From Streptomyces sp. Q6 (GTDB lineage Bacteria > Actinomycetota > Actinomycetes > Streptomycetales > Streptomycetaceae): DNA of 64,000 bases. Numbering within the stretch: the stretch's first letter is position 1; every line of letters starts with the position of its first letter. Below the pieces are notes generated by a model that saw only the letters and a list, made by a program, of their open reading frames with translations, made no database searches and was not told the origin of the DNA. A program made the translations under genes and the position numbers. Below, piece after piece: positions 52,690-57,609 of the stretch. Where the stretch lies: positions 2,232,001 through 2,296,000 of the forward strand of contig NZ_CP146022.1 of assembly GCF_036967205.1 (NCBI RefSeq). Direction: 5' to 3'.

Positions 52690-52985
52690 GCGAAAAGCGT
52701 GGATGGGGCCGAGTAGCGACGTACGCAGCCAAGAGCGATCCGGGGACGGTGGAAGCCCGGAGGCGAGCGCGCCGCGAAGATCACCCCGGAGCCGCCGGAA
52801 GAACACCGCAGCGAAGCAGCCGCGGCCAGTAGACCCGGCATCGCGACCCCAATGAGGGGGCTCACCGAAGCGCTCACCGGCGCGAAGGGGAGCCAAGGAG
52901 GGTGGTACCGCGGGAGCGCGCCGCACACGGCGTACAGCACATGAGCTCTCGTCCCTCCGACGGAGAGAAGCACGTCCGCCGGAGG
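52690..52985 (+). promoter_or_regulatory. T-box leader of ileS (translational type)
   Basis: AAGGAGGGTGGTACCGCGG at 52895-52913 is the T-box sequence, whose TGGT pairs with the ACCA end of uncharged tRNA-Ile. A candidate Ile specifier is ATC at 52780-52782 (another ATC lies near 52737). CCTCCGACGG (52954-52963) can pair at 9 of 10 positions with CCGCCGGAGG (52976-52985), which contains the ileS Shine-Dalgarno. Thus the off state hides the ribosome binding site instead of ending transcription. Uncharged tRNA-Ile should open it. Confidence 0.88.
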
Positions 52986-52992
52986 AAGACTG

Positions 52993-55900
52993 ATGACGCA
53001 GTACCGCCAGGTGCCCGCCCAGGTCGACCTGCCCGCCCTCGAGCACGCGGTGCTCGACTTCTGGCGCGAGCAGAAGATCTTCGCCAAGAGCCTGGAACAG
53101 TCCGAAGGACGCCCCGAGTGGGTGTTCTACGAGGGCCCGCCCACGGCCAACGGCATGCCGGGCGCCCACCACATCGAGGCCCGCGTCTTCAAGGACGTCT
53201 TCCCCCGCTTCCGCACGATGCGCGGCTACCACGTGGCCCGTAAGGCGGGCTGGGACTGCCACGGCCTCCCGGTAGAGCTCGCGGTCGAGAAGGAGCTCGG
53301 CTTCAACGGCAAGAAGGACATCGAGGCGTACGGCATCGCCGAGTTCAACGCCAAGTGCCGCGAGTCCGTGACCCGCCACACCGACGCCTTCTCCGACCTG
53401 ACGACCCGCATGGGCTACTGGGTCGACCTCGACGACGCGTACCGGACGATGGACCCCGAGTACGTCGAGTCCGTGTGGTGGTCGCTGAAGGAGATCTTCG
53501 ACAAGGGCCTCCTGGTCCAGGACCACCGCGTCGCCCCCTGGTGCCCGCGCTGCGGCACCGGCCTCTCGGACCACGAGCTGGCGCAGGGCTACGAGACGGT
53601 CGTCGACCCTTCGGTCTATGTCCGTTTCCCCCTCACCTCCGGTCCGCTGGCGGGCCAGGCCTCGCTCCTGATCTGGACGACGACCCCCTGGACCCTGGTG
53701 TCCAACACGGCGGTCGCCGCCCACCCCGACGTCCGCTACGTCGTCGCGACGAACGGCGAGGAGAAGCTCGTCGTCGCCGAGCCGCTCGTCGAGAAGTCGC
53801 TCGGCGAGGGCTGGGAGACGACCGGCGAGTCCTTCACCGGCGCCGAGATGGAGCGCTGGAAGTACCAACGCCCGTTCGAGCTCGTGGAGTTCCCGGCCGA
53901 GGCCCACTACGTGGTCAACGCCGAGTACGTGACGACCGAGGACGGTACGGGTCTGGTCCACCAGTCCCCCGCGTTCGGTGAGGACGACCTCAAGGTCTGC
54001 CGCGCGTACGGCCTGCCGGTCGTCAACCCGGTCCTGCCCGACGGCACCTTCTCCGCCGAGGTCCCGCTGGTCGGTGGCGTCTTCTTCAAGAAGGCCGACG
54101 AGAAGCTGACCGAGGACCTCGGCGCCCGCGGCCTGCTCTACAAGCACGTCCCGTACGAGCACAGCTACCCGCACTGCTGGCGCTGCCACACGGCGCTGCT
54201 GTACTACGCGCAGCCCTCCTGGTACATCCGCACCACGGCCGTCAAGGACCGTCTCCTCCAGGAGAACGAGAAGACGAACTGGTTCCCGGAGACCGTCAAG
54301 AACGGCCGCTTCGGCGACTGGCTCCAGAACAACATCGACTGGGCCCTGTCCCGCAACCGCTACTGGGGCACCCCGCTGCCGATCTGGCGCTGCGAGGAGG
54401 GCCACCTCACGTGCGTCGGCTCCCGCGAGGAGCTGTCGCGGCTGACGGGCACCGACCAGTCGCAGCTCGAACCGCACCGCCCGTACATCGACGACGTCAC
54501 GTTCCCCTGCACCCACGAGGGCTGCGCGCGGACGGCCACGCGCGTGCCCGAGGTCATCGACGCCTGGTACGACTCGGGTTCGATGCCGTTCGCGCAGTGG
54601 GGCTACCCGTACAAGAACAAGGAACTCTTCGAGTCCCGCTACCCGGCGCAGTTCATCAGCGAGGCCATCGACCAGACGCGTGGCTGGTTCTACACGCTGA
54701 TGGCCATCGGCACGCTGGTCTTCGACAAGTCCTCGTACGAGAACGTGGTCTGCCTCGGCCACATCCTCGCCGAGGACGGACGCAAGATGTCCAAGCACCT
54801 GGGCAACACCCTGGACCCGATCCCGCTGATGGACCGGCACGGCGCGGACGCGGTGCGCTGGTTCATGGCGGCCGGCGGCTCCCCGTGGGCGGCGCGCCGC
54901 GTCGGCCACGGCACGATCCAGGAGGTCGTCCGCAAGACGCTCCTCACGTACTGGAACACCGTCGCCTTCCAGGCCCTGTACGCCCGTACGTCCGAGTGGG
55001 CGCCCAGCGAGGCGGACCCGGCCCCGGCCGACCGCACCGTCCTGGACCGCTGGCTCCTGTCCGAGCTGCACCAGCTCACGGACCAGGTCACCGCGGCCCT
55101 GGAGGCGTACGACACCCAGCGCGCCGGCAAGCTCCTCTCGGCGTTCGTCGACGACCTGTCCAACTGGTACGTGCGCCGCTCGCGCCGCCGCTTCTGGCAG
55201 GGCGACAAGGCCGCGCTGCGCACCCTGCACGACGTGGTGGTGACCGTCACGCAGCTGATGGCGCCGCTCACGCCGTTCATCGCGGAGCGGGTCTGGCAGG
55301 ACCTGGTCGTCCCGGTCACGCCGGACGCGCCCGAGTCGGTGCACCTGTCGTCGTGGCCGGAGGCCGACACGTCGGCGATCGACCCGAGCCTGTCGACGCA
55401 GATGGCGCTGGTCCGCCGTCTGGTGGAGCTCGGCCGTGCCACGCGCGCGGAGTCGGGCGTCAAGACCCGCCAGCCGCTGTCCCGCGCGCTCGTCGCGGCG
55501 TCGGGCTTCGACACGCTCTCCCCCGAGCTGCACTCGCAGATCACGGAGGAGCTGAACGTCTCCTCGCTGGCCTCGCTCTCCGAGGTCGGCGGCTCCCTGG
55601 TCGACACGACGGCCAAGGCGAACTTCCGGGCGCTCGGCAAGCGCTTCGGCAAGCGCGTCCAGGACGTCGCGAAGGCCGTGGCGAACGCGGACGCGGCGGC
55701 GCTCTCCCTGGCCCTGCGCGAGGGGAACGCCTCGGTGGAGGTCGACGGCGAGACGGTCACGCTCGCCCCCGACGAGGTCATCATCACGGAGACCCCGCGC
55801 GAGGGCTGGTCGGTGGCGTCCGACTCCGGCGCCACGGTCGCCCTCGACCTGGAGCTCACGGAGGAGCTGCGGCAGGCGGGCCTGGCCCGTGACGCGATCC

Positions 55901-56130
55901 GCCTGATCCAGGAGGCCCGCAAGAACAGCGGCCTGGACGTCGCGGACCGGATCGCCCTGCGCTGGACGTCCACGGACCCGGCCGTGATCGCGGCCCTGTC
56001 CGAGCACGCCGAGCTCATCGCGGACGAGGTCCTCGCCACGGACTTCGCCCAGGGCGAGGCGGACGACACGTACGGCACCCCGTTCACGGACGAGGGCCTG
56101 AGCCTGGAGTTCCGCCTGCGCAAGGCGTAG
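52993..56130 (+). CDS. ileS: Isoleucyl-tRNA synthetase (IleRS2 type, altered GxHH signature)
   Basis: A 1045-aa class I synthetase. Where the HxGH motif is expected (PPTANGMP...), the sequence is G57-A58-H59-H60, so the first and third positions are swapped. KMSK is intact (GRKMSKHLGN, residues 598-601). The editing domain has TTPWTLVSNTAVA. GWDCHGLPVELAVEKELGF, YDSGSMPFAQWGYPY and DQTRGWFYTLMAIGTL are typical of the eukaryote-like IleRS2 clade, which resists mupirocin. The C-terminal tail lacks the IleRS1-type zinc cysteines. A T-box controls it. The start ATG 52993 has GGAGGAAG upstream. Confidence 0.96.
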   Translation: MTQYRQVPAQVDLPALEHAVLDFWREQKIFAKSLEQSEGRPEWVFYEGPPTANGMPGAHHIEARVFKDVFPRFRTMRGYHVARKAGWDCHGLPVELAVEKELGFNGKKDIEAYGIAEFNAKCRESVTRHTDAFSDLTTRMGYWVDLDDAYRTMDPEYVESVWWSLKEIFDKGLLVQDHRVAPWCPRCGTGLSDHELAQGYETVVDPSVYVRFPLTSGPLAGQASLLIWTTTPWTLVSNTAVAAHPDVRYVVATNGEEKLVVAEPLVEKSLGEGWETTGESFTGAEMERWKYQRPFELVEFPAEAHYVVNAEYVTTEDGTGLVHQSPAFGEDDLKVCRAYGLPVVNPVLPDGTFSAEVPLVGGVFFKKADEKLTEDLGARGLLYKHVPYEHSYPHCWRCHTALLYYAQPSWYIRTTAVKDRLLQENEKTNWFPETVKNGRFGDWLQNNIDWALSRNRYWGTPLPIWRCEEGHLTCVGSREELSRLTGTDQSQLEPHRPYIDDVTFPCTHEGCARTATRVPEVIDAWYDSGSMPFAQWGYPYKNKELFESRYPAQFISEAIDQTRGWFYTLMAIGTLVFDKSSYENVVCLGHILAEDGRKMSKHLGNTLDPIPLMDRHGADAVRWFMAAGGSPWAARRVGHGTIQEVVRKTLLTYWNTVAFQALYARTSEWAPSEADPAPADRTVLDRWLLSELHQLTDQVTAALEAYDTQRAGKLLSAFVDDLSNWYVRRSRRRFWQGDKAALRTLHDVVVTVTQLMAPLTPFIAERVWQDLVVPVTPDAPESVHLSSWPEADTSAIDPSLSTQMALVRRLVELGRATRAESGVKTRQPLSRALVAASGFDTLSPELHSQITEELNVSSLASLSEVGGSLVDTTAKANFRALGKRFGKRVQDVAKAVANADAAALSLALREGNASVEVDGETVTLAPDEVIITETPREGWSVASDSGATVALDLELTEELRQAGLARDAIRLIQEARKNSGLDVADRIALRWTSTDPAVIAALSEHAELIADEVLATDFAQGEADDTYGTPFTDEGLSLEFRLRKA

Positions 56131-56187: not shown

Positions 56188-56217
56188 GCGTTTCGTCCCG
56201 TCGCACGGCTGACGCAC

Positions 56218-56292
<75 letters not shown>

Positions 56293-56433: not shown

Positions 56434-57609
56434 TTAGTTGTCGTCCTCGTCGATGAGGAACCCGCGCATCGGCGACGGGGCCTGCTGCATCGGCTGCGGC
56501 GCCTGCGGCCGCACCGGCGCCATCGGCTGCGTCATCGCGGGCGACATCTGCTGCTGGCCTCCGTAGGACGGACCCTGCTGCTGGTTGCCGCCCATGCCCT
56601 GGTTGCCACCGTAGGACGGGGCACCCGCACCGGCCGGAGCCATCGACGGCGCCGGCGACGGCGGCAGCGAGGCGGTGGCCGGAGTACGCGGCGGAGCGAG
56701 CGAGTCGTCGGCCTGGGTCTCCAGCTGACGCAGCTGCGACTCCAGGTACGACTTCAGACGCGTCCGGTACTCGCGCTCGAAGCCGCGCAGGTCCTCGACC
56801 TTGCGCTCCAGCGTGGCGCGAGCGGACTCCAGGGAGCCCATCGCGACGCGGTGCTTCTCCTGCGCGTCCCGCTCCAGGGCGTCGGCCTTGGCACGGGCGT
56901 CACGCTCGAGACCCTCGGCGCGGCTGCGGGCCTCGCCGACGATCTTGTTGGCCTCGGAGCGGGCCTCGGCGATCGCCTGGTCGGCGGTCTGCTGGGCCAG
57001 CGAGAGGACACGGGCGGCGCTGTCGCCACCGGGGCCCTGACCGGGCTGCTGCATCTGCGGCGGGCCGCCGTGGCCGCCCATCGGACCGCCCATGGGGCCA
57101 CCGAGCTGCGGCTGGCCGCCCATGGAGCCCTGCATCGGACCCTGGCCCATGGGGCCCTGGCCCATCGGACCCTGACCCATCTGACCGGGACCCTGCGGGC
57201 CGCCCTGCGGACCGTGTCCACCGGGACCGGCCGGAAGCTGCGGAGCACCGCTCGGCAGCTGCGGCGGACCGCCCATGGGGCCGCCCATCTGCTGCTGCGG
57301 CGGGCCCGATATCCCGGCGGGCACGGGGGCGCCGGGACCGCGCATGCCCTGCGGGGGACCCTGCTGCTGGTCCTGCGGGCCGCCCGGGCCCTCGGGGCCC
57401 TTGCGCATGCCGCCCTGCTGCTGGTTCTGTGCGGCGGCACGGGTGGCGGCGGCGAGCTTCGCGCGCAGGTCCTCGTTCTCACGAAGGAGACGGGTCAGTT
57501 CGGCTTCGACCTCATCGAGGAAGGCATCGACCTCGTCCTCGTCATAGCCTTCTCGGAGGCGGACGGTCGTGAACTGCTTGTTCCGCACGTCCTCGGGGGT
57601 CAACGGCAT
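56434..57609 (-). CDS. divIVA: Cell polarity determinant DivIVA
   Basis: A 391-aa coiled-coil scaffold. The N-terminal membrane-curvature domain is [20 protein letters not shown], then [21 protein letters not shown] long Gln/Gly/Pro-rich linker (about 65-200, with [18 protein letters not shown] repeats) leads to a second coiled coil ([20 protein letters not shown] to [15 protein letters not shown]) and a disordered tail ending IDEDDN. In Streptomyces it marks hyphal tips and directs apical growth and branching. The start is ATG 57609. Confidence 0.97.

Follow-up and report, generated by a model that had tools for sequence, protein, structure and literature searches.

The 64-kb window (the whole 64,000-nucleotide stretch of Streptomyces sp. 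Q6 DNA that was analysed) contains an ileS gene at 52993–56130 on the forward strand, which opens with an ATG at 52993 and encodes an isoleucine–tRNA ligase of type 2 (IleRS2) of 1045 amino acids, with T-box elements upstream and a tRNA-like gene downstream. The protein scored 902 bits against the TIGR00392 model, which has a cut-off of 621 bits, and matched four Pfam families, PF00133, PF08264, and PF19302 (residues 849–1037) among them, with catalytic, anticodon-binding, and DUF5915 domains. Against structure entries, scores were 905–920 bits for Thermus thermophilus IleRS (1ile) and the 1032-residue entries, 611–670 bits for eukaryotic-type entries, and 278–355 bits for entries of 917–921 residues, which we read as IleRS1. 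The excess of the first group of scores over those of the presumed IleRS1 entries therefore places the enzyme in IleRS2, and the family models and domains agree with this assignment, which the first-pass annotation had already made. The protein has a Thr in PPTANG at a candidate position that may be equivalent to E. coli Tyr59. In the available part of PMC4861432, IleRS2 enzymes are distinguished by Phe or Thr at that position and by lack of a C-terminal Cys4 zinc cluster; no zinc-finger family was among the four Pfam families found in the ileS protein. We considered a transferable MupA/MupB resistance gene and rejected it, as these models matched at 782 and 752 bits, far under their cut-offs of 1900.

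The first class I signature of the enzyme reads G57-A58-H59-H60 (codons GGC GCC CAC CAC, 53161–53172, forward strand), with the first and third positions of HxGH exchanged, as the first-pass annotation had claimed. Alignment was the check it had proposed; with HMMER, MPGAHH lay without gaps on LPHVGH in both 1ile (T. thermophilus IleRS) and 8c8v as well as on LPGVHH of 8c8w, and these alignments with solved structures implied no HxGH at another place in ileS. Judging from their lengths and motifs, 8c8v and 8c8w would be the P. megaterium IleRS2 entries of PMC10485003; 8c8w (GVHH), which we read as the mutant, has the same swap as ileS but, unlike ileS, would be engineered, the matching natural form being HVGH with KMSKS. 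Residues 57–60, with Gly first and His as both the third and fourth residue, have the composition that defines the G/AxHH subtype in PMC10485003. The second class I signature, at residues 598–602 (54784–54798, forward strand), is KMSKH, with His replacing the last Ser present in 1ile and 8c8v, and an earlier description of it as normal thus fails at the fifth residue. In the editing domain, which the first-pass annotation found normal-looking, the codon at 53986–53988 (forward strand) specifies D332, which aligns in HMMER with T. thermophilus D328 and is probably the catalytic Asp. We presume that D332 corresponds to S. griseus D334, the role of which is described in the available part of PMC4861432.

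GAHH was present at all 43 same-genus loci examined (L005–L047, drawn from 50 relatives met among the matches listed), and codons 57, 58, and 59 varied synonymously, with seven combinations in total: GGC-GCC-CAC-CAC at 28 loci, GGC-GCG-CAC-CAC at 9, and five others at the remaining 6. The motif is therefore no error, and the prospect that a sequencing mistake, wrong frame, or misalignment conceals a true HxGH elsewhere is negligible, given this conservation and an alignment that needs no gap against structures of either the HxGH or the GxHH kind. The swap in ileS is real; it is common to every same-genus locus examined and is no peculiarity of this strain. Across 118 class loci from the matches listed, a non-random set that includes the window's own gene (L001 plus L005–L121, motifs read in the tblastn frame), 108 carried GxHH and 10 carried HYGH. 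The second residue at these 108 listed GxHH loci was Thr in 51, Ala in 49, Val in 7, and Ile in 1. At the threshold used, no IleRS match was obtained in six of the 197 genomes of the class.

Very probably, ileS is the ordinary and only isoleucyl-tRNA synthetase of Streptomyces sp. Q6. A search of the genome (8.95 Mb, 99.99% complete) for a second ileS, suggested in the first-pass annotation, found none either with the protein or with PF00133. The protein search gave one IleRS, and its other three matches fell within one 879-residue frame at 27–29% identity; the PF00133 search recovered both of these genes and, more weakly, frames of 1062, 630, and 412 residues. From their sizes and scores, the matches other than ileS would be valS, leuS, metG, and a CysRS-like gene. 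An IleRS match was found in each of 61 genomes (its own, 36 of the same genus, 15 of the same order, and 9 of the same class). Every one of the 36 same-genus relatives had a single full-length match, and the extra matches in two of them (G015 and G034) were partial, at 30–31%.

These counts bear directly on the idea that ileS is a horizontally acquired resistance copy accessory to a normal ileS. IleRS2 genes do occur elsewhere as second copies, and GxHH and HYGH IleRS2 enzymes are found together in two same-order genomes (G045 and G047), but the lack of a second ileS in both genome searches, the single full-length match per same-genus relative, and the ileS-type T-box elements upstream of the gene make such an origin very improbable. 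The earlier view of ileS as the main IleRS rather than an accessory copy is thus supported. In the two same-order genomes, the second enzyme (loci L068 and L070, respectively) is an IleRS2 of the HYGH/KMSKS kind, at 42% identity, and lies beside an enzyme of the GxHH clade.

The T-box leader spans 52697–52956 (forward strand) and was detected by a permissive Rfam search as two RF00230 pieces, 52697–52792 and 52851–52956, which scored 40.8 and 20.2 bits against a gathering score of 93; at gathering scores, Rfam gave no T-box match in the whole 64-kb window. The T-box proposed before ileS is therefore borne out in its elements, including an AUC specifier, and falls short in its scores, both pieces lying under the gathering threshold. 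The AUC (Ile) specifier codon was placed at 52780–52782 (forward strand) from the Rfam alignment and the context in genus leaders, where ATCACC(C)CGG occurred in 40 of 44 and four had no match to the pattern. The T-box sequence AGGGTGGTACCGCGG lies at 52899–52913 (forward strand) in the Rfam alignment, and its core GGTGGTACCGCGG was present in all 44 genus leaders (43 relatives and the window). A putative sequestrator hairpin at 52954–52985 (forward strand) is predicted to pair CCUCCG (52954–52959) with CGGAGG (52980–52985), the latter containing the Shine-Dalgarno sequence GGAGG (52981–52985). This fold was modestly better than shuffles, with a z-score of −1.68 and 16 of 200 shuffled sequences folding as well.

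The leader resembles the actinobacterial ileS T-boxes described in the available part of PMC1262725, for which a translational mechanism with a hairpin over the Shine-Dalgarno box was proposed. The likeness is one of elements rather than of alignment, and consists of an Ile specifier, a T-box sequence, and a predicted hairpin that would hide the Shine-Dalgarno sequence. By this analogy, ileS expression is probably controlled at translation by a T-box responding to uncharged tRNA-Ile.

We hold with great confidence that ileS encodes a housekeeping IleRS2 in which the GAHH swap would retain activity and bind mupirocin poorly, and that expression is governed by a probable translational T-box; catalysis, the mupirocin Ki, and T-box function are assigned here by analogy with published systems. 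On this reading, positions 1 and 3 of HxGH are exchanged in the housekeeping enzyme of a Streptomyces-like actinomycete. As in published IleRS2 structures, the tip of the helix that bears the motif would be shifted, and the third His may substitute for the catalytic first His with no clash with ATP; modelling in published IleRS2 shows the swapped motif clashing with bound mupirocin. A shifted helix tip combined with such a clash would leave activity in place and let mupirocin hardly bind, to judge from these relatives.

Both the swap and its effect on mupirocin are already published and known down to the genus, in agreement with the statement in the first-pass annotation that GxHH enzymes keep activity and confer extreme mupirocin resistance. 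In the parts of the two papers available, PMC10485003 (2023) describes the G/AxHH swap, mentions S. griseus among the organisms that carry it, reports mupirocin Ki values in the millimolar range, counts 86 G/AxHH enzymes among 379 IleRS with none in IleRS1, and finds that exchanging the motif in both directions alters the mupirocin Ki ~200- to 800-fold; PMC4861432 (2016) puts the mupirocin Ki of S. griseus IleRS at 10 mM and reports that this enzyme sustains E. coli growth on plates containing mupirocin. According to Table 1 of PMC10485003, the engineered swap reduces kcat from 66 to 6.2 per second in P. megaterium IleRS2 and from 27.9 to 7.0 in T. thermophilus IleRS2; natural D. radiodurans IleRS2 is faster with its swap, and the same table gives it a mupirocin Ki of 6.6 mM. 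A millimolar Ki combined with nearly normal catalysis, which also characterises the G/AxHH subtype, is seen in these papers only for the S. griseus and D. radiodurans enzymes. The Q6 enzyme is closest in kind to S. griseus IleRS2, being of the same family and genus, with the first/third swap and the conserved post-transfer editing Asp, and no difference in kind was evident in a comparison that follows the papers' wording ("same non-canonical motif") in their available parts rather than motif letters. It also resembles D. radiodurans IleRS2 in having a natural non-canonical motif, although that motif, ALHH, has Ala first and belongs to another phylum. The published work shows that even a main enzyme can carry a swapped class I tRNA synthetase signature and become extremely resistant to an antibiotic as a result, and Streptomyces sp. 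Q6 ileS is one more ordinary member of this known kind. Among the matches listed, the literature gave no lead on a self-resistance role of IleRS in Streptomyces.

We also compared the two class I signatures across genomes. Within the 118 class loci from the matches listed, GxHH was paired with [KR]MSKH at 107 of 108 loci and HYGH with KMSKS at 10 of 10. The one listed class locus that departs from the [KR]MSKH pairing (L102, genome G130) has GTHH with KMSKN. A wider set came from an alignment query on a broad genome collection and comprises the best 80 of 588 confirmed candidates, a non-random sample. Its 36 GxHH loci carried KMSKS (23), KMSKH (8), KMSKT (3), KMSKA (1), or KMAKS (1), and its 44 HxGH loci carried KMSKS (34) or KMSKH (10). 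KMSKH as a compensatory change for GxHH was accordingly rejected, the pairing being broken both ways among these best 80 of 588. Because the coupling fails in the wider set, we read KMSKH as a lineage trait; in a quickly built tree with 103 rows, KMSKH and other letters at this site were separated by at least seven changes. The word KMSKH is absent from PMC10485003 and, among the matches listed, from the literature from 2023 on. The survey thus adds a negative result, in that KMSKH, the companion of GxHH at nearly all class loci examined, is not required elsewhere.

The quick tree, which is unrooted and was built with the motif columns removed, contained the window, the best 80 of 588 candidates, and 22 chosen class rows, and the named rows nearest the window were two Streptomyces species. 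The GxHH/HxGH label required four or more changes, of which starred branches force two, and 28 of the 100 inner branches are open. This minimum of changes agrees with the publication, which counted no fewer than two gains and one reversion. The two states were strongly clustered: the fewest changes were 4 against a mean of 34.5 for shuffled labels, and none of 500 shuffles was as low. As no root was placed, the tree also allows a single early gain followed by several losses.

This history leaves room for a reading in which the swap is an old trait of an IleRS2 lineage, of little catalytic cost and not selected by mupirocin, with resistance as a by-product. We consider it possible, if somewhat doubtful. 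In addition to the clustering on the tree, it draws on the 36 GxHH loci among the best 80 of 588 candidates, which include records named Caldisericum, Anaerolineaceae, Thermoflexus, and Ignavibacteria, organisms that presumably rarely meet pseudomonad mupirocin. These 80 loci are a non-random selection, however; moreover, the authors of PMC10485003, in the part available, favour selection for resistance, and the kcat losses that they tabulate for the engineered P. megaterium and T. thermophilus enzymes speak against a low cost. A more specific version, which strikes us as rather unlikely, makes GxHH the ancient state of one large IleRS2 branch, with the canonical HxGH motifs in the rows from Firmicutes, Thermus, and Chloroflexi (L130) as reversions. 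If GxHH were ancient in this way, the mupirocin hyper-resistance of Streptomyces would be inherited rather than an adaptation to mupirocin.

Downstream of ileS, a tRNA-like gene whose anticodon arm is irregular lies at 56217–56292 on the reverse strand, between ileS and a reverse-strand gene at 56434–57609 that we presume to be divIVA/wag31. ARAGORN called the tRNA-like gene a tRNA-Met (CAT, position 38), and Rfam matched it to tRNA-Sec at 27.4 bits, under the gathering score of 47. One copy is present in this genome. Among 199 genomes of the genus, the Q6 genome being one of them, 68 had matches at E ≤ 1e-6, some at 90–97% identity and sometimes several per genome; this number is a lower bound, with four candidates scored per genome, and those at about 80% may represent other tRNAs. 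Eight copies (L206–L213) hardly differ in their D, anticodon, and T parts but have different acceptor-stem letters and 40-base flanks; by eye, paired acceptor-stem letters change together, and several copies have a TATGAT-like box upstream. Five of ten frames neighbouring L207–L213, picked by codon GC, had Pfam matches (MFS, EF-Tu, GNAT, IS4 transposase, and RamC_N). The gene and its relatives look like a dispersed tRNA-like family, a reading against which stands a predicted fold energy no better than that of shuffles; no literature on such a family was found among the matches listed. At one same-genus locus (L005, genome G017), a related tRNA-like gene (83% over 72 nucleotides) lies at 1326–1400, shortly after ileS and on the strand opposite to it; ARAGORN called it a tRNA-Ala (GGC), with an apparently lengthened anticodon stem, and gave no match at the 45 other ileS loci scanned.
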